Assembly: GCF_003352185.1 (NCBI RefSeq)
Contig: NZ_CP029608.1
Coordinates: 434,001 to 498,000, forward strand
DNA from: Pseudomonas kribbensis
Lineage (GTDB): Bacteria; Pseudomonadota; Gammaproteobacteria; Pseudomonadales; Pseudomonadaceae
DNA length: 64,000 nt
Direction of reading: 5' to 3'
Positions 8,381 to 19,168 of the stretch are shown here, one piece after another (positions within the stretch are counted from its first letter, which is position 1; the number at the start of each line of letters is the position of its first letter). The notes below the pieces were generated by a model. The model made no database searches, was not told the origin of the DNA, and worked only from the letters and a program-made list of their open reading frames with translations. Made by a program: the position numbers and the translations under genes.

Positions 8381-8506
8381 ATGCGTATGAGTCGTCAGAG
8401 GTTCTCCGCAGCGTCCCTGATTCGCTTGTCGCGCATTGAAGCGCACAAGCCGCTTGCCCATCGCCAGGGTTGGTTTGAATTGATCGCTGAGGAGTCTTTT
8501 TCGTGA
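8381..8506 (+). CDS. Possible 41-codon leader ORF overlapping hutU
   Basis: An open frame starts at ATG 8381 (second in-frame ATG at 8387) and ends with TGA at 8504-8506, overlapping the hutU GTG start at 8503-8505 as GTGA. It would encode 41 residues, basic and Arg-rich, with two His codons (22 and 27) and one Trp. The predicted transcript start leaves only about 17 bases of 5' untranslated RNA, and the ribosome site (TAAAGACGT) is weak. A frame this long can occur by chance at this GC content, so I hold it as a candidate. If translated, it would couple its own termination to hutU initiation. Confidence 0.35.
8424..8450 (+). other. Hairpin in the hutU leader RNA
   Basis: GCTTGT-C-GCGC (8424-8434) pairs with GCGC-ACAAGC (8441-8450) as ten base pairs with one bulged C and a 6-base loop, 52 bases before the hutU start and inside the possible leader ORF. 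No T-run follows, so it is not itself a terminator. Confidence 0.55.
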
Positions 8507-10185
8507 CTGACGCAAAAACTACTAAATTCCGTGACGTTGAAATCCGTGCATCGCGCGGCAACAAGCTGACCGCCAAGAGCTGGCTGACCGAAGCGCCGCT
8601 GCGCATGCTGATGAACAACCTCGACCCGGAAGTGGCCGAGAACCCGAAAGAGCTGGTGGTCTACGGTGGCATCGGTCGCGCCGCGCGCAACTGGGAGTGC
8701 TACGACAAGATCGTCGAAAGCCTGACCAACCTGAATGACGACGAAACCCTGCTGGTGCAGTCCGGCAAACCGGTCGGCGTGTTCAAGACCCACAGCAATG
8801 CCCCGCGCGTGCTGATCGCCAACTCCAACCTGGTGCCGCACTGGGCGACCTGGGAACACTTCAACGAACTCGACGCGAAAGGTCTGGCGATGTACGGCCA
8901 GATGACCGCCGGCAGCTGGATCTACATCGGCAGCCAGGGCATCGTCCAGGGCACTTACGAAACCTTCGTCGAGGCCGGTCGCCAGCATTACGATTCGAAC
9001 CTCAAGGGCCGCTGGGTCCTGACCGCCGGCCTCGGCGGCATGGGCGGCGCCCAGCCGCTGGCCGCGACCCTGGCCGGTGCCTGCTCGCTGAACATCGAAT
9101 GCCAGCAGGTGAGCATCGATTTCCGCCTGAAAAGCCGTTACGTCGACGAGCAGGCCAAAGACCTCGACGACGCCCTGGCGCGCATCGAGAAGTACACAAA
9201 AGAAGGCAAGGCGATCTCCATCGCGCTGCTGGGTAACGCCGCCGAAATCCTTCCGGAACTGGTCCGTCGTGGCGTGCGCCCGGACATGGTCACCGACCAG
9301 ACCAGCGCCCACGATCCGCTCAACGGTTACCTGCCGGCCGGCTGGACCTGGGACGAATACCGCGCCCGCGCCAAGACCGAACCGGCCGCTGTGATCAAGG
9401 CCGCCAAGCAATCGATGGCGGTGCACGTCAAAGCCATGCTCGACTTCCAGAAGCAAGGCATCCCGACCTTCGACTACGGCAACAACATCCGCCAGATGGC
9501 CCAGGAAGAGGGCGTGGAAAACGCCTTCGACTTCCCGGGTTTCGTGCCGGCCTACATCCGTCCGTTGTTCTGCCGTGGCATCGGCCCGTTCCGCTGGGCG
9601 GCGCTGTCGGGTGATCCGCAGGACATCTACAAGACCGACGCCAAGGTCAAAGAACTGATCCCGGACGACGCCCATCTGCACAACTGGCTGGACATGGCCC
9701 GCGAGCGCATCAGCTTCCAGGGTCTGCCGGCGCGCATTTGCTGGGTCGGCCTGGGCCAGCGCGCCAAGCTCGGTCTGGCGTTCAACGAAATGGTCCGTCG
9801 CGGCGAGCTGTCGGCCCCGATCGTCATCGGCCGCGACCACCTCGACTCCGGCTCGGTCTCCAGCCCGAACCGTGAAACCGAATCGATGCAGGACGGCTCC
9901 GATGCCGTCTCCGACTGGCCACTGCTCAACGCTTTGCTCAACACCGCGAGCGGCGCGACCTGGGTTTCCCTGCACCACGGCGGCGGCGTCGGCATGGGCT
10001 TCTCGCAACACTCGGGCATGGTAATCGTCTGCGACGGTACGGACGAAGCAGCCGAGCGTATCGCTCGCGTGCTGCACAACGACCCGGGCACCGGTGTGAT
10101 GCGTCACGCCGATGCCGGTTACCAGATCGCCATCGACTGCGCCAAGGAGCAAGGGCTGAACCTGCCGATGATCACCGGAAAATAA
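8503..10185 (+). CDS. hutU: Urocanate hydratase
   Basis: Urocanase (560 residues) adds water to urocanate to give imidazolonepropionate, using tightly bound NAD+ as electrophile. Family segments are present: [22 protein letters not shown], an NAD-binding [31 protein letters not shown], and the signature [13 protein letters not shown], whose Cys413 corresponds to the essential Cys410 of P. putida. The GTG start at 8503 has GGAG 8 bases upstream and gives the normal MTDAK-type N-terminus. It is the first recognised gene of the large plus-strand hut operon behind the sigma-54 promoter and HutC operator. The other half of the operon follows through short REP-containing gaps. Confidence 0.97.
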
Positions 10186-11739: not shown

Positions 11740-11810
11740 TCTGGACGTGGACAGGGCTGGATGCCTCTTGAACTGCCGTAAGCCAATTCATGATTAGGAG
11801 CGTCACAACA

Positions 11811-12779
11811 ATGAAATCGAACAAGACCCTGCTGACCACATTGCTGTCCATGGGCCTGCTGGCCAGTGCCGGTGCCACCCAGGCCGCCGGCTGGTGCGAA
11901 TCCGGCAAACCGGTGAAATTCGCCGGCTTGAACTGGGAAAGCGCGATGTTGCTGACCGACGTGCTGCAAGTCGTGCTGGAGAAAGGTTACGACTGCAAGA
12001 CCGACAGCCTGCCAGGCAACTCCATCACCATGGAAAACGCCCTGAGCAGCAACGATATTCAAGTGTTCGCCGAAGAGTGGGTCGGCCGCAGCGAGGTCTG
12101 GAACAAGGCCGAGAAGGCCGGCAAGGTCGTGGGTGTCGGCGCGCCGGTGGTCGGTGCGGTGGAAGGCTGGTACGTGCCGCGCTACGTGATCGAAGGCGAT
12201 GCCAAACGCAAGATCGAAGCCAAGGCACCGGACCTGAAAAACATCGCTGACCTGGGCAAATACTCGGCGATCTTCAAGGACGCCGAAGAGCCGTCCAAGG
12301 GCCGCTTCTATAACTGTCCGGCCGGCTGGACCTGCGAGCTGGACAACAGCGAAATGCTGAAAAGCTACGGCCTGGAAAACAGCTACACCAACTTCCGTCC
12401 GGGCACCGGTCCGGCGCTGGATGCGGCGGTGCTGTCGAACTACAAGCGCGGCGAGCCGATCCTGTTCTACTACTGGTCGCCAACCCCGCTGATGGGCCAG
12501 ATCGACGCGGTCAAACTGGAAGAGAAGCCGGGCGTCGACAAGCGCGTGACCATCAAGGTCGGCCTGTCCAAGACCTTCCACGAGGAAGCCCCGGAGCTGG
12601 TGGCCGTGCTGGAAAAGGTCAACCTGCCGATCGACCTGCTGAACCAGAACCTGGGCCGCATGACCAAGGAGCGGATCGAGTCGCCGAAGCTGGCGAAAAT
12701 CTTCCTCAAGGAACATCCTGAGGTCTGGCATGCGTGGGTCAGCGACGACGCTGCCAAGAAAATCGACGCGGCGCTGTAG
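11811..12779 (+). CDS. hutX: Histidine ABC transporter, periplasmic binding protein
   Basis: A 322-residue OpuAC-type (glycine-betaine/proline class) binding protein, with a Sec signal ending in TQAAGWC. The ATG at 11811 gives the complete signal; AGGAG lies about 10 bases upstream. The mature protein has VKFAGLNWESAMLLTDVLQVVL, EEWVGRSEVW and EGWYVPRYV, aromatic-rich segments typical of cation-pi ligand pockets, plus four Cys (two near the N-terminus, two in YNCPAGWTCEL) that could form disulfides. With hutW and hutV it makes an uptake system that is a known histidine carrier in Pseudomonas hut clusters. A near-match to the Hfq/Crc motif overlaps the start codon. Confidence 0.88.
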   Translation: MKSNKTLLTTLLSMGLLASAGATQAAGWCESGKPVKFAGLNWESAMLLTDVLQVVLEKGYDCKTDSLPGNSITMENALSSNDIQVFAEEWVGRSEVWNKAEKAGKVVGVGAPVVGAVEGWYVPRYVIEGDAKRKIEAKAPDLKNIADLGKYSAIFKDAEEPSKGRFYNCPAGWTCELDNSEMLKSYGLENSYTNFRPGTGPALDAAVLSNYKRGEPILFYYWSPTPLMGQIDAVKLEEKPGVDKRVTIKVGLSKTFHEEAPELVAVLEKVNLPIDLLNQNLGRMTKERIESPKLAKIFLKEHPEVWHAWVSDDAAKKIDAAL

Positions 12780-12862: not shown

Positions 12863-13714
12863 ATGTTTCCCGAACGCTTTACGTTTTCCATCGCCGACTG
12901 GGTCAACGGTTGGGTCGATGCACTGGTCACCAACTACGGTGACGTGTTCCGCCATATCTCCGACACCCTGCTGTGGGCCATCGTCAACCTTGAAGGCCTG
13001 CTGCGCGCCGCACCGTGGTGGTTGATGCTGGCCATCGTCGCGGGTGTTGCCTGGCACGCCACCCGCAAGCTCGTGACCACCGCCGTGATCGTTGGTCTGC
13101 TGTTCCTGGTCGGCGCCGTCGGCCTGTGGGACAAGCTTATGCAGACACTGGCGCTGATGATGGTCGCCACGGTCATCTCGGTGCTGATCGGTGTGCCGCT
13201 GGGGATCCTCTCGGCACGCAGCAATCGCCTGCGTTCGTTCCTGATGCCGCTGCTCGACATCATGCAGACCATGCCCAGCTTCGTGTACCTGATTCCGGTG
13301 CTGATGCTGTTCGGCCTGGGCAAGGTGCCGGCGATTTTCGCCACCGTGATCTACGCTGCGCCGCCGCTGATCCGCCTGACCGATCTGGGCATCCGCCAGG
13401 TCGACGGTGAAGTGATGGAAGCCATCAACGCTTTCGGCGCCAACCGCTGGCAGCAACTGTTCGGCGTGCAACTGCCGCTGGCCCTGCCGAGCATCATGGC
13501 CGGGATCAACCAGACCACCATGATGGCCCTGTCGATGGTGGTGATCGCCTCGATGATCGGTGCCCGTGGCCTGGGTGAAGATGTGCTGGTGGGCATTCAG
13601 ACCCTCAACGTCGGACGCGGCCTTGAAGCCGGTCTGGCGATCGTGATTCTCGCAGTGGTCATCGACCGCATTACCCAGGCGTATGGTCGGCCACGGCATG
13701 AGGTGAGCAAATGA
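12863..13714 (+). CDS. hutW: Histidine ABC transporter, permease
   Basis: A 283-residue inner-membrane permease of the ProW/OpuAB type. It has 6-7 hydrophobic segments and a BPD_transp_1 core. The cytoplasmic EAA-like loop is visible at EAINAFGANRWQQLFGVQLPLALPSIMAGINQT, which docks onto the ATPase HutV. The N-terminal amphipathic stretch (MFPERFTFSIADWVNGWVDAL) resembles ProW relatives. The gene overlaps hutV by 4 bases (ATGA), so the two are translationally coupled, and both follow the binding-protein gene after a stem-loop. Confidence 0.92.
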   Translation: MFPERFTFSIADWVNGWVDALVTNYGDVFRHISDTLLWAIVNLEGLLRAAPWWLMLAIVAGVAWHATRKLVTTAVIVGLLFLVGAVGLWDKLMQTLALMMVATVISVLIGVPLGILSARSNRLRSFLMPLLDIMQTMPSFVYLIPVLMLFGLGKVPAIFATVIYAAPPLIRLTDLGIRQVDGEVMEAINAFGANRWQQLFGVQLPLALPSIMAGINQTTMMALSMVVIASMIGARGLGEDVLVGIQTLNVGRGLEAGLAIVILAVVIDRITQAYGRPRHEVSK

Positions 13715-14541
13715 GCAACGCAACCGTGAGCAAGATCGAAGTCAAAAACGTCTTCAAGATTTTCGGCAACCGTTCCAGGGACGCGCTGGCGATGGTCGGC
13801 CAGGGCAAGACCAAGGAGCAGGTGCTGAACGAAACCGGTTGCGTGGTCGGGGTCAACGACCTGTCCCTGAGTATCGGCACCGGCGAGATCTTCGTGATCA
13901 TGGGCCTGTCCGGCTCCGGCAAATCCACACTGGTTCGCCACTTCAACCGCCTGATCGACCCGACCAGCGGCGCGATCCTGGTGGACGGCGTGGACATCCT
14001 GCAATACGACATGGACGCGCTGCGCGAATTTCGCCGGCACAAGATCAGCATGGTGTTCCAGAGCTTCGGCCTGCTGCCGCACAAGACCGTGCTCGACAAC
14101 GTCGCCTACGGCCTGAAAGTGCGCGGCGAGAGCAAGCAGCTGTGCGCCGAGCGCGCGCTTCACTGGATTAATACCGTGGGCCTCAAGGGCTACGAAAACA
14201 AATACCCGCACCAGCTCTCCGGCGGCATGCGCCAGCGTGTCGGCCTGGCCCGCGCGCTGGCGGCGGACACCGACATCATCCTGATGGACGAGGCGTTCAG
14301 CGCCCTCGACCCGCTGATCCGCGCCGAGATGCAGGACCAGTTGCTGGAGCTGCAAAAGACCCTGCACAAGACCATCGTCTTCATCACCCACGACCTCGAC
14401 GAAGCCGTGCGCATCGGCAACCGCATCGCGATCCTCAAGGACGGCCGCCTGATCCAGGTCGGCACCCCGAAAGAGATCCTGCATTCGCCGGCGGACGAGT
14501 ATGTCGACCGTTTCGTGCAGCGGCGGGCGGCGGTGGTTTAA
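13711..14541 (+). CDS. hutV: Histidine ABC transporter, ATP-binding protein
   Basis: A 276-residue ATPase of the ProV/OpuAA class. Walker A is MGLSGSGKST (64-73), the signature is LSGGMRQRVGLARALA, Walker B is IILMDEAFSALDP and the switch His is in FITHDLDEA. ProV relatives carry a long extension with tandem CBS domains; this protein ends soon after the nucleotide-binding domain, so osmosensing by CBS domains is absent, in keeping with a nutrient importer. It is coupled to hutW by overlap. A REP pair lies between it and the next gene. Confidence 0.93.
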   Translation: MSNATVSKIEVKNVFKIFGNRSRDALAMVGQGKTKEQVLNETGCVVGVNDLSLSIGTGEIFVIMGLSGSGKSTLVRHFNRLIDPTSGAILVDGVDILQYDMDALREFRRHKISMVFQSFGLLPHKTVLDNVAYGLKVRGESKQLCAERALHWINTVGLKGYENKYPHQLSGGMRQRVGLARALAADTDIILMDEAFSALDPLIRAEMQDQLLELQKTLHKTIVFITHDLDEAVRIGNRIAILKDGRLIQVGTPKEILHSPADEYVDRFVQRRAAVV

Positions 14542-14588: not shown

Positions 14589-14652
14589 GAGCAGGCTCGC
14601 TCCCACAGTTGAAATGTGTGCCCCTGTGGGAGCGAGCCTGCTCGCGATAGCG
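14589..14652. repeat. Inverted REP pair (BIME) between hutV and the hutH paralogue
   Basis: Two copies of a unit with head TGTGGGAGCGAGCCTGCTC face each other (14589-14608 and 14624-14652, the second continuing into GCGATAGCG). It starts 48 bases after the hutV stop. The same unit recurs at 29272 and 44481-44569. Confidence 0.85.
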
Positions 14653-14689: not shown

Positions 14690-16213
14690 ATGTCCCAGGC
14701 TGAAAAAATCGTTATCGCCGACGCTCCAATGCGTTGGCAGGATGTGGTCGTGGTAGCCCGTCACGGCGCGCAGCTCGAGCTGTCGGCCCAGACCTGGGCG
14801 CGCATCGAAAATGCCCAGGGCATCGTCCAGCGCATCGTTGCCAGCGGCGAACGTGCTTATGGCGTCAACACCGGGCTGGGCGGTCTGTCCAATGTCTCGC
14901 TGCAGGGCGAACAACTCAGCCAGTTGTCGCGCAACACCTTGCTCAGCCACGCCTGCGGCGTCGGCCCGGTACTGGCCGACGAGCAGACCCGCGCCATCAT
15001 GTGCGCCGCGATCCGCAATTACAGCCACGGCAAATCCGGGATTCATCGCCAAGTAGTCGAAGCACTGCTGGCGTTGCTCAATCGCGGTATCACTCCGCAA
15101 GTGCCGTCCCAGGGTTCGGTCGGTTACCTGACCCACATGGCTCACATCGGTATCGCGCTGCTGGGCGTGGGCAATGTCAGCTATCGCGGGCAAGTGATTT
15201 CCGCGCAGCAGGCGCTGGCCGAAGAAGGCCTGCAACCGGTACAACTCGGGGCGAAGGATGGTTTGTGCCTGGTCAACGGCACGCCGTGCATGACCGGTCT
15301 CGGCTGCCTCGCCATCGCCGATGCCGTGCGTCTGGTGCAATGGGCCGACGTGGTCGGTGCCATGAGTTTCGAAGCGCAACGCGGCCAGATCGCCGCGTTC
15401 GATGCCGAGATCATCGCGCTAAAGCCGCACCCGGGCATGCAACAGGTCGGCGTCAATCTGCGGGCGCTGCTCGACGGCAGTGAAGTGATCGCGAAGAGCA
15501 AAGGCATTCGCACCCAGGATGCGCTGAGCATCCGCTCGATCCCGCAAGTGCACGGCGCCGCGCGCGATCAACTGCAACATGCGATCAAACAGATCGAAAC
15601 CGAACTCAACGGCTGCACCGACAACCCGTTGCTGCTGGGCACGCCGGACGACTTCCGGGTCATGTCCCAGGCCAACCCGCACGGGCAATCGGTGGCGTTG
15701 GCGGCGGACTTGCTGGCGATCGCGATGGCCGAAATCGGCTCGATTGCCGAGCGGCGTCTGGACCGTCTGATCAACCCGCACGTCAGCGGTCTGCCGGCGT
15801 TTCTGGTGGCCAATCCGGGGGTGAACTCCGGGATGATGATCGTGCAATACGTCGCCGCGTCGCTGTGCGCGGAAAACCGCCAGTTGGCGCAACCGGCGGT
15901 GCTCGACAACTACGTCACTTCCGGCCTGCAGGAAGACCACCTGAGCATGGGCACCAACGCCGCGCTGAAGCTGCACCGCGCGCTGGAAAACTGCACGCAG
16001 ATCCTCGCCATCGAGTACCTGCTGGCGGCTCAGGCGTTTGAATTTCTCAAGGAACAGCGCTTTGGCGCCGGCACCGATGTGGCGTGGCGACTGCTGCGCG
16101 AGAAAGTCCCGGCCTACGATCAGGACCGCTGGCTGGCGCCGGATATCGCCGCTGCCGCGAGCGTGTTGAAGGACCCGGATCTGCTGCGCCACGTACTGCC
16201 GAATTTGCACTGA
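14690..16213 (+). CDS. Ammonia-lyase paralogue lacking the MIO tripeptide
   Basis: A 507-residue member of the HAL/PAL fold, similar to HutH across its length. Conserved elements: YGVNTGLGG (Tyr57, equal to the catalytic Tyr of HutH), LLSHACGVG (His87), LVNGTPC (Asn196), TDNPLLL, PQVHGA and QEDHLSMG. The segment that should read GSVG-ASG-D reads GSVG-Y (codons at 15113-15127): the Ala-Ser-Gly that cyclises to the MIO cofactor is missing. With no stops or frameshifts, it looks selected rather than decayed, but ordinary histidine deamination is unlikely. The ATG at 14690 has GAGG 6 bases upstream; ATG 14678 is an alternative. It may correspond to the locus called hutH1 in other fluorescens-group strains. 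Confidence 0.85.
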
Positions 16214-16329: not shown

Positions 16330-17862
16330 ATGACTGCGCTGAACCTGATCCCCGGCCAACTTAGCCTGGCCCAACTGCGTGATGTCTATCAGCAACCGGT
16401 CAAGCTGACTCTCGACAACAGCGCCTCGGCCCAGATCGAAGCCAGCGTTGCCTGCGTCGAGCAGATCCTCGCCGAGAACCGCACCGCCTACGGCATCAAC
16501 ACCGGTTTCGGCCTGCTGGCCTCGACCCGCATCGCCAGCGAAGACCTGGAAAACCTCCAGCGTTCGCTGGTGCTGTCCCACGCCGCCGGCGTCGGCCAGC
16601 CGATCAGCGATGAGCTGGTGCGTCTGATCATGGTGCTCAAGGTCAACAGCCTCAGCCGTGGTTTCTCTGGTATCCGCCGCGTGGTGATCGACGCGCTGAT
16701 CGCTTTGATCAATGCCGAGGTTTACCCGCACATTCCGCTGAAAGGTTCGGTCGGTGCGTCCGGTGACCTGGCACCGCTGGCGCACATGTCGCTGGTGCTG
16801 CTGGGCGAGGGCAAGGCGCGCTACAAGGGCGAGTGGATGGAAGCCACCGAAGCGCTGAAGGTCGCCGGTCTGAACCCGCTGACGCTGGCGGCCAAAGAAG
16901 GCCTGGCGCTGCTCAACGGCACTCAGGTGTCCACCGCATTCGCGCTGCGCGGTCTGTTCGAAGGTGAAGACCTGTTCGCCGGCGCGCTGGCGCTGGGCGG
17001 TCTTACAGTTGAAGCGGTGCTCGGTTCGCGTTCGCCGTTCGACGCGCGCATCCATGCGGCCCGTGGCCAGAAAGGCCAGATCGACACCGCCGCCGCTTAC
17101 CGCGATCTGCTCGGCGAGCGCAGTGAAGTCTCCGATTCGCACCAGAACTGCGAAAAGGTCCAGGACCCGTACTCGCTGCGCTGCCAGCCACAAGTCATGG
17201 GCGCGTGCCTGACCCAGTTCCGTCAGGCCGCTGAAGTGCTGGTCATCGAAGCCAACGCCGTGTCGGATAACCCGTTGGTATTCGCCGCCGAAGGCGACGT
17301 GATTTCCGGCGGCAACTTCCACGCCGAACCCGTGTCCATGGCTGCCGACAATATGGCCCTGGCCATCGCCGAAATCGGCTCCCTGAGTGAGCGCCGCATC
17401 TCGCTGATGATGGACAAGCACATGTCGCAACTGCCGCCGTTCCTGGTGGCCAATGGCGGCGTGAACTCCGGCTTTATGATTGCCCAGGTGACTGCGGCGG
17501 CCCTCGCCAGCGAAAACAAGGCACTGGCCCATCCGCATTCGGTGGACAGCCTGCCGACGTCCGCCAACCAGGAAGACCACGTCTCCATGGCCCCGGCTGC
17601 CGGCAAGCGTCTGTGGGAAATGGCCGAGAACACGCGCGGGATTCTCGCGGTGGAATGGCTGGCGGCGGTGCAGGGTCTGGACCTGCGTAACGGTCTGAAG
17701 ACCTCGAGCAAACTGGAGAAGGCCCGGGGCATTTTGCGTCGCGAAGTGCCGTTCTACGAGAAGGACCGCTTCTTTGCGCCGGACATCAATGCCGCGAGCG
17801 AACTGCTGGCTTCGCGCATTCTGACTGAGCTGGTTCCGGCCAAGTTGCTGCCGAGCCTGTGA
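16330..17862 (+). CDS. hutH: Histidine ammonia-lyase
   Basis: Catalyses the first step of the pathway, L-histidine to urocanate plus ammonia. The 510-residue length equals P. putida HutH. The MIO motif is present as [15 protein letters not shown] (Ala143-Ser144-Gly145). YGINTGFG (Tyr54), LSHAAGVG (His84), [17 protein letters not shown] and [13 protein letters not shown] supply the other active-site residues. The ATG at 16330 follows AAAAGGAGCACAAA; the frame is open further upstream but those codons show no family similarity. It lies directly after the MIO-less paralogue, and a 24-bp perfect REP pair separates it from hutI. Confidence 0.97.
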
Positions 17863-17869
17863 TGCACTC

Positions 17870-17933
17870 ATCGCCAGCAGGCTGGCTCCCACAAGAGCAC
17901 CGCGCAACCTGTGGGAGCCAGCCTGCTGGCGAT
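17870..17933. repeat. Perfect 24-bp inverted REP pair between hutH and hutI
   Basis: Arms 17870-17893 and 17910-17933 are exact reverse complements with a 16-base spacer, starting 8 bases after the hutH stop. The subtype carries CCAGCAGGCTGG instead of GAGCAGGCTC. It can form one long stem or two cruciform units. Confidence 0.9.
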
Positions 17934-17962: not shown

Positions 17963-19168
17963 ATGAAAACCCTCTGGCAACACTGCCACGTCGCAACCAT
18001 GGCGCAAGGCGTCTACTCGATCATCGAGGATGCGGCCATCGTGACGTCCGGTGCACACATCGAGTGGATCGGCCCGCGCACTCAATTGCCGTCCGGCGAA
18101 TACCCGGCGGTCAACGATCTGCAAGGCGCGTGGGTCACCCCCGGACTGATCGACTGCCACACTCACACCGTGTTCGGCGGTAACCGCAGCGGTGAGTTCG
18201 AGAAACGCCTGCAAGGCGTCAGCTATGCCGAGATCGCCGCAGCCGGCGGCGGCATCGCCAGCACCGTGCGGGCGACGCGTGAAGCCTCGGAAGACGAGCT
18301 GTTCGCCAGCGCCGCCAAACGCCTGAAAAGCCTGATGCGCGATGGCGTGACCACGGTCGAAATGAAGTCCGGCTACGGCCTCGACCTGGCCAGCGAACGC
18401 AAGATCCTGCGGGTCATCCGTCGCCTCGCCGACGAACTGCCGATCAGCGTGCGCAGCACCTGTCTCGCTGCCCATGCGTTGCCGCCGGAATACAAGGACC
18501 GCGCTGACGATTACATCGATCACATCTGCGCCGAGATGCTGCCCGCACTGGCCGCCGAAGGGCTGGTGGACGCGGTGGATGCCTTCTGCGAATACCTGGC
18601 GTTCTCCCCGGAGCAGGTCGAGCGGGTGTTCATCACCGCGCAAAAACTGGGTCTGCCGGTGAAGCTGCACGCCGAGCAATTGTCGTCGTTGCACGGTTCC
18701 AGCCTCGCGGCGCGCTATCACGCGTTGTCCGCCGATCACCTGGAGTTCATGGATGAGGACGACGCCATTGCCATGGCCAAATCCGACACCGTCGCGGTGT
18801 TGCTGCCGGGGGCGTTCTACTTCCTGCGTGAAACCCAATTGCCGCCGATGGAAGCCCTGCGCAAGCACAAGGTGAAAATCGCCATCGCCAGCGACCTCAA
18901 CCCCGGCACGTCGCCGGCGCTGTCGTTGCGTCTGATGCTGAACATGGCCTGCACCTGTTTCCGCATGACCCCGGAAGAAGCCCTGGCCGGCGCCACGATT
19001 CATGCGGCGCAAGCCCTGGGCATGGCCGATACCCACGGTTCGCTGGAGGTTGGCAAGGTGGCGGATTTCGTCGCCTGGCAGATCGACCGGCCGGCGGACC
19101 TGGCGTACTGGCTGGGTGGTGAACTGGACAAACGTGTCGTGCGTCACGGCGTTGAATCAAGTCTGTAG
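17963..19168 (+). CDS. hutI: Imidazolonepropionase
   Basis: Zinc or iron amidohydrolase (401 residues) that opens the ring of 4-imidazolone-5-propionate to give formimidoylglutamate. Metal and substrate motifs: [20 protein letters not shown] (HxH), the aromatic YGLD after [23 protein letters not shown] and [11 protein letters not shown] (late Asp). The N-terminal part ([13 protein letters not shown]) is the family's usual beta-strand opening. HutU feeds it and HutF uses its product. hutG starts 10 bases downstream on the same strand, so the two are cotranscribed. Confidence 0.97.

Follow-up and report, generated by a model that had tools for sequence, protein, structure and literature searches.

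Why would a bacterium carry, beside a canonical HutH, a second HutH-like protein without the tripeptide from which the electrophile MIO is formed? The question is raised by P0001, encoded in the 64,000-nucleotide stretch of Pseudomonas kribbensis DNA analysed here (the window). Databases label it a histidine ammonia-lyase, yet P0001 is without the group that defines this enzyme. An earlier note on the window had proposed that the protein may sense histidine or urocanate, form mixed tetramers with HutH or use different chemistry.

Frame, loop and pocket of P0001

The reading frame of P0001 is open over its 507 codons, as the earlier note had described, and GAGG, a ribosome-binding-like motif, lies directly 5' of the ATG at 14690. 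One lyase domain covers the length of the protein, with a whole-domain match to Pfam Lyase_aromatic (PF00221; E 1.7e-165, 551.7 bits against a cut-off of 27.3). In a global alignment to the HutH of the window (16330-17862), which gave 198 identities over 501 aligned pairs, the three-residue gap at the MIO tripeptide proved to be real: codons 142-146 (15113-15127) read GSVGY, and the HutH-defining ASG is missing (GSVG---Y).

P0001 and HutH (TIGR01225) have the fold, the length, the hut operon and the positions of HAL Tyr53, His83, Asn195, Arg283 and Glu414 in common, and Tyr57, His87 and Asn196 are present in P0001 as previously stated. The further statement that the rest of the active site is kept did not hold. 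HAL Tyr280, in the HutH motif QDPYSLR, aligns with Leu279 of P0001 (QDALSIR), and HAL Phe329, in GGNFH, aligns with Pro330 (QANPH); both replacements are fixed in 114/114 orthologues. P0001 thus differs from HutH in lacking ASG/MIO and the pocket pair Tyr280 and Phe329, and in having a new Tyr146 and His149. The HAL residue numbering and roles used here (Tyr280, Phe329 and others) follow the HAL literature.

The solved structure nearest to P0001 by sequence is PDB 7tqr, a probable histidine ammonia-lyase (E 3.4e-105) that we assume to come from Thermoplasma acidophilum. Unlike P0001, it has a modified residue at the MIO place and Tyr and Phe at the Tyr280 and Phe329 positions.

Table 1 Features of the MIO-less gene and its neighbours in the window
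Feature	Position	Strand	Basis or remark
MIO-less HutH-like lyase P0001, 507 aa; proposed histidine-betaine trimethylamine-lyase	14690..16213	+	open frame
Loop G142-S-V-G-Y146-L-T-H149-M150 at the former MIO tripeptide site	15113..15139	+	alignment
Q276-D-A-L279-S-I-R282; Leu at the HAL Tyr280 position, as in ergothionase; Arg283 kept	15515..15535	+	
P330, at the HAL Phe329 position	15677..15679	+	
E415, at the HAL Glu414 position, kept	15932..15934	+	
HutX, OpuAC-type periplasmic binding protein	11790..12779	+	W97, W180 and W229 align with ProX W65, W140 and W188
HutW, importer permease	12863..13714	+	PF00528
HutV, importer ATPase, directly 5' of the MIO-less gene	13711..14541	+	PF00005
Canonical HutH with ASG	16330..17862	+	alignment
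HutU, canonical urocanate hydratase, not thiourocanate hydratase	8503..10185	+	TIGR01228, 1023 bits; thiourocanate model 691 against a cut-off of 930
HutI	17963..19168	+	blastp to annotated R. etli HutI, 51%

Could P0001 still be a histidine ammonia-lyase, slow and independent of MIO? The HutH model TIGR01225 barely accepts it (540.4 bits against a cut-off of 539.15) and scores its relatives from S. meliloti (465) and Agrobacterium (427) below the cut-off. Besides the score above the cut-off, a MIO-independent addition pathway of PAL with electron-poor substrates (PMC7247363) speaks for such an activity. Against it, a mutation that removed MIO left PAL with practically no activity on Phe (PMC3903478), Tyr280 and Phe329 are gone as well, and the genome already holds a true HutH. 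We therefore regard a slow HAL as highly improbable.

Extent and conservation of the MIO-less family

Relatives of P0001 with at least 57% identity occur in 137 of the 199 Pseudomonas genomes searched, and the MIO-less subfamily extends beyond Pseudomonas to Enterobacterales, Burkholderiales, rhizobia and Priestia. Members of Pseudomonas, Serratia, Pantoea, Erwinia, Sodalis, Prodigiosinella, Pokkaliibacter, Polaromonas and Rhodoferax are among the best 80 of at least 593 relatives, and the MIO-less loop was read on plasmids or chromids of Erwinia, Burkholderia, Rhizobium, Sinorhizobium, Agrobacterium, Aminobacter, Roseateles and the Firmicute Priestia. By identity to P0001 we distinguished group A (the Pseudomonas hut operon and near kin, at least 66%), group B (56-59%) and group C (44-53%); Priestia (45%) stands outside this grouping. 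A family profile at E 1e-100 matched in 45 of 369 Gammaproteobacterial genomes sampled. Among the 30 loci read from this sample, two are MIO-less (the window and a Pseudomonadales genome, G563) and 28 carry ASG; 19 further matches were left out.

The pocket was compared across 32 proteins of groups A-C, 46 HutH, four ergothionase-type and two PAL-like proteins. ASG is missing from 32/32 members of groups A-C and 4/4 ergothionase-type proteins, and present in 46/46 HutH and 2/2 PAL-like proteins. Tyr146 and His149, for which HutH has Ala142 and Pro148, are invariant in all 32 members of groups A-C, and the HAL Tyr280 position holds Leu in 31 of them (Met in one) and in 4/4 ergothionase-type proteins, but Tyr in 46/46 HutH and 2/2 PAL-like proteins. 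At the HAL Phe329 position, groups A and B have Pro, group C Ala, Priestia Cys and ergothionase Phe. HAL Asn195 is kept in groups A-C, whereas ergothionase has Ser.

The earlier note had named ASG in close relatives, or freely varying pocket residues, as grounds for doubting its reading. The gap was found in every orthologue read, with Tyr146 and no ASG in 114/114 distinct orthologues of at least 75% identity to P0001; Leu279 and Pro330 are fixed in the same set. Eight HAL pocket columns had been named in advance, and every one of them is invariant, compared with 216 of 507 columns overall (p 0.001); a longer list of fifteen columns, partly chosen post hoc, was kept out of this test. The median dN/dS of the orthologues is 0.122 (1441 pairs, 114 sequences) and that of HutH 0.080 (1428 pairs, 79 sequences), so the MIO-less gene is constrained, somewhat less than HutH. 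The sequence comparison indicates that the ASG gap is the mark of an old, fixed subfamily and no recent loss, and that the pocket has been re-tooled with new invariant residues (Tyr146, His149, Leu279 and Pro330) rather than relaxed. The alignment would place Tyr146 and His149 within this pocket.

A decaying pseudogene or a sequencing error, to which nothing but the missing tripeptide points, is barely credible given that the same gap recurs in many assemblies and that dN/dS is 0.12. For the family as a whole, the earlier judgement that P0001 is not a decaying pseudogene is thus borne out by unrelaxed constraint.

In a quick tree of 87 proteins, groups A, B and C form one clade (SH-aLRT 100) from which ergothionase is separated. 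Trees constrained to unite this clade with ergothionase and/or group D have a likelihood above that of the quick tree, and the AU test rejected none of these groupings (p 0.673 for A+B+C with ergothionase, p 0.696 with group D and p 0.713 with both), so that the trees are compatible with one loss of MIO as well as with several. Group D comprises ASG-less HutH-like proteins of about 37% identity (L055 4832-6370, L056 7983-9521 and L057 7977-9515) with the loop GSVGYLAVEGH. It keeps Tyr280 and Phe329 (3/3 loci for Tyr280) and adjoins an amino-acid-type importer; L056 also holds a HutU copy 96% identical to that of the window. The window's genome encodes a further ASG-bearing PAL/HAL-like gene (L004, G000:C1:523832-525181), 34% identical to P0001.

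Ergothionase (ergothioneine trimethylamine-lyase; PDB 6s7j/6s7q, Treponema denticola; Burkholderia HME13) is a trimethylamine lyase without MIO, as described in parts of PMC13405746; natural loss of MIO is therefore already known. The fold, the absence of MIO, Leu at Tyr280 and the Tyr53, His83, Arg283 and Glu414 positions are common to ergothionase and P0001. Ergothionase differs in its loop (S-I-G-E-G-D, with Asp kept), in Ser at Asn195, in the retained Phe329 and in a Lys (K383) at the position of P0001 Tyr387, where one of the four ergothionase-type sequences has Ala. It is 27-30% identical to four members of group C. Since the loop and the residue at Asn195 differ, residue roles are not transferable from ergothionase to the MIO-less family. 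Ergothionase-type proteins with an [EQ]AD loop and Leu at Tyr280 were read in Paracoccus, S. meliloti and Burkholderia arboris (L219 7503-9191, L220 7533-9173 and L221). The Paracoccus gene lies directly after hutU; the Paracoccus and S. meliloti proteins are annotated as aromatic/histidine ammonia-lyase and, judged by eye, have a putative signal peptide.

Importers and hut genes around the MIO-less gene

The neighbourhoods of 108 distinct MIO-less genes that passed a flank and length filter were compared. An importer ATPase lies directly 5' of the MIO-less gene in 104 of the 108 loci, 88 of the OpuAC type (HutXWV) and 16 of the polar-amino-acid type; the spacing is at most 20 nt in 40 of the 104, and the genes overlap in nine. 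HutH lies directly downstream in 66/108 loci. Of the four loci without an ATPase 5', two have a BCCT transporter directly upstream (L050, L051); in the other two (L053, L054), a GbcA-like gene is found a short way upstream and a gene of the ferredoxin-reductase type downstream of the MIO-less gene. In group B, a BCCT betaine/carnitine/choline transporter is found directly 5' in all four loci (L050 and L052 by Pfam; L051 and L229 by blastp, 75-79% to that of L050). The order in L229, from G563, is HutU, BCCT, MIO-less gene, HutI and HutG, with HutH about 8 kb off.

In the window, perfect inverted repeats (20 and 24 nt) lie in the gaps that precede the MIO-less gene (14589-14643) and follow hutH (17870-17933); they are presumably of the REP type known from Pseudomonas.

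Co-occurrence was scored in the 199 Pseudomonas genomes at E 1e-165 or better for HutX and E 1e-150 or better for HutH. HutX was found in 128/137 genomes with the MIO-less gene and in 1/62 without it, HutH in 137/137 and 50/62, all of these counts ignoring shared ancestry. HutX is thus the sharper partner of the MIO-less gene. A close HutX is missing from nine genomes that carry the gene; three of these belong to group B and have BCCT (L050-L052), two have an amino-acid-type importer (L048, L049) and four (L224-L227) keep HutW and HutV. The single genome with a close HutX and without the MIO-less gene is G043, in which a HutC-like gene and HutXWV stand without HutH or the MIO-less gene (L228).

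These patterns bear on the proposal that P0001 is a catalytically dead paralogue that enters mixed tetramers with HutH and tunes its activity. In the aromatic lyase fold several subunits contribute to each active site, HutH is often the next gene, and it is present in every genome with the MIO-less gene (137/137 Pseudomonas and 15/15 others): no genome with the MIO-less gene but without a MIO-bearing HutH was found among the 137 Pseudomonas genomes, of 199 searched, and the 15 further genomes. The HutH frame is interrupted in the assemblies of Serratia rubidaea and Polaromonas. Against mixed tetramers, HutH is not directly downstream in 42/108 loci and is never adjacent in the 15 other genomes, where the nearest lies about 4.4 kb away; in 10 of these 15 the best HutH is just 56-61% identical to that of the window. 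The far more frequent importer ATPase 5', the sharper association with HutX and a pocket re-tooled rather than relaxed weaken the proposal further, and we consider it very unlikely.

The alternative of a non-catalytic sensor of histidine, urocanate or a betaine would fit the loss of MIO under strong conservation, and HutC regulators lie near the MIO-less gene in Rhizobium and Burkholderia. HutC is, however, already the repressor; one lyase domain spans P0001, the catalytic Tyr, Arg and Glu positions are kept and the new Tyr and His are fixed. A pure sensor would also leave the repeated pairing with betaine importers in catabolic operons unexplained, and this role now appears improbable.

In an alignment of the window HutX with E. 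coli ProX, the residues W65, W140 and W188, which we take to form the betaine box, fall on Trp of HutX. All three positions are kept in 88/88 OpuAC-type binding proteins of the 108 loci. For OpuAC/ProX types, sections of PMC9732360 describe a Trp cation-pi contact to the trimethylammonium of glycine betaine; hercynine was tested there on EgtU, an ergothioneine importer. Among the amino-acid-type importers, the sole binding protein compared, that of Erwinia E602, is nearest to octopine/nopaline-binding proteins, which bind N-substituted amino acids; this likeness would also fit other N-substituted histidines.

S. meliloti carries on pSymB hutC, hutF, the OpuAC importer hutXWV and a MIO-less HutH with GSVGYLTH and QDPLSLR, a group C member 48% identical to P0001; we take this locus to be the hutXWV-hutH2 operon. 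In the study of Boncompagni et al. (2000), the hutH2 product was reportedly called a putative histidase, and HutXWV is said to take up histidine, proline and betaines, so that a betaine box is no proof of a betaine substrate.

We assume that PA5093 is the MIO-less HutH-like gene of PAO1 and that PA5091 is hutG. In parts of PMC12772324, hutG is given as PA5093; unless this tag is a misprint, the 'hutG' mutant of that study may concern the MIO-less family.

A candidate trimethylamine-lyase for hercynine

Together, the sequence and gene-order data suggest that P0001 probably releases trimethylamine from a histidine betaine without the help of MIO, that this betaine is most likely hercynine and that urocanate, the product natural to a hut operon, is formed. 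The absence of ASG, the invariant Tyr146 and His149, the Leu at Tyr280 in common with ergothionase, the dN/dS of 0.12 with invariant pocket columns and the co-occurrence with HutX all argue for a lyase of this type, and the OpuAC importers with their Trp positions and the BCCT transporters of group B argue for a betaine as substrate. Of the possibilities raised by the earlier note, different chemistry is therefore the one that gains support, from purifying selection, a re-tooled invariant pocket and the coupling to importers. The higher dN/dS compared with HutH counts against the trimethylamine-lyase.

P0001 would accordingly be catalytic, with the aromatic amino acid lyase fold, but would have given up the deamination of histidine. 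The betaine would be taken up by HutXWV, and hercynine (N-alpha-trimethylhistidine) would be cleaved by P0001 to trimethylamine and urocanate, which HutU, HutI, HutF and HutG could then degrade. Because a quaternary ammonium is a good leaving group, the MIO electrophile would not be needed. In such a pocket, Tyr57, Arg282 and Glu415 may bind and orient the substrate, Leu279 and Pro330, in place of Tyr280 and Phe329, may create space for N(CH3)3, and Tyr146 and His149 of the former MIO loop may carry out acid-base chemistry. The sequence changes and their fixation, the gene neighbourhoods, the co-occurrence and the kept Trp positions are observations; substrate, product and residue roles are predictions from them. 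That the large subfamily annotated as HutH consists of hercynine trimethylamine-lyases whose acid-base chemistry is carried out by a Tyr-His pair where MIO once stood has, in our estimate, an even chance of being right.

Group C loci hold GbcA-like, SolA and ErtD-type genes, some of them of the N-demethylation type, which further supports a trimethylamine-lyase. The GbcA-like Rieske oxygenases of two group C Pseudomonas loci reach 582 and 586 bits where the model for glycine betaine monooxygenase requires 670, and by this measure they are relatives of that family, not members; the reductase beside them resembles GbcB only weakly (68 bits, with 500 required), which we counted against this reading. 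In Rhizobium CB3090 and Roseateles, the MIO-less gene adjoins a gene for a SolA-type N-methyl-L-tryptophan oxidase, which clears the model cut-off of 257 with 418 and 421 bits. On Agrobacterium pAt the order is an S-methylthiourocanate-hydratase-like gene (855 bits against a cut-off of 880, the protein being incomplete at the locus edge), an S/N-oxide reductase, ErtD (hydantoin-5-propionate amidohydrolase of the ergothioneine-utilisation family; 783.6 bits against a cut-off of 600), an OpuAC importer and the MIO-less gene.

These loci may also be read in another way, with P0001 as a MIO-independent lyase acting on a different N-alpha-substituted or thio-histidine, such as ergothioneine, S-methylergothioneine, mono- or dimethylhistidine or an opine-type histidine. 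The ErtD operon of the Agrobacterium relative, the adjoining SolA-type oxidases and the Erwinia E602 binding protein all point in this direction. In the window's genome, by contrast, canonical HutU is the only hydratase found, in two copies, and an ErtD search of this genome gave nothing above the cut-off; the OpuAC Trp positions and BCCT indicate a full quaternary ammonium. We regard a substrate of this kind as rather unlikely. With a canonical HutU, no ErtD above the cut-off and Tyr387 in place of ergothionase K383, hercynine is preferred over ergothioneine. Ergothionase as such was rejected for the window gene on the canonical HutU, the ErtD result, the differing loop and Asn195.

The second HutU copy belongs to a further hutU-hutH pair located towards the opposite end of the contig (G000:C1:6299849-6303072; L231 6850-10085); its HutU matches that of the window at 100% identity and its HutH at 98%.

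Eight ErtD-type clusters, one reached via its lyase and seven of 45 ErtD records, were read. A MIO-bearing HutH is present in three (L241 11750-13363, L242 7368-8900 and L244 4020-5546), the MIO-less form in one (L232), and no annotated lyase lies within the stretch in four (L238, L239, L240 and L243), a distribution that we counted against the trimethylamine-lyase. The MIO-bearing HutH of these ErtD (ergothioneine/hydantoin) clusters perhaps acts on a primary-amine thio- or oxo-histidine. The contrast between L244 (MIO form with a HisM-type importer) and L232 (MIO-less form with a betaine importer) fits, in a small number of clusters, a trimethylamine-lyase. In two more of the 45 records, from Burkholderia arboris and Paracoccus denitrificans, ErtD lies by position about 6 kb from an ergothionase-type loop.

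In the open-access literature, subscription journals being outside its scope, our searches found no hercynine lyase, no hercynine degradation, catabolism or utilization and no MIO-less HutH, natural MIO loss being described for ergothionase alone; nothing was found in it on the activity of a P0001-type protein.

The subfamily, annotated as HutH, is found in about two thirds of the sampled Pseudomonas species. If it does act on hercynine, many Pseudomonas and rhizobial genomes would be misannotated, and hercynine, the biosynthetic precursor of ergothioneine, would have a catabolic route by which histidine betaine from fungi and soil could enter the histidine pathway. A hidden source of trimethylamine would then exist among bacteria of the soil and rhizosphere, and the family would show how an enzyme can drop its electrophilic cofactor once the leaving group needs none.
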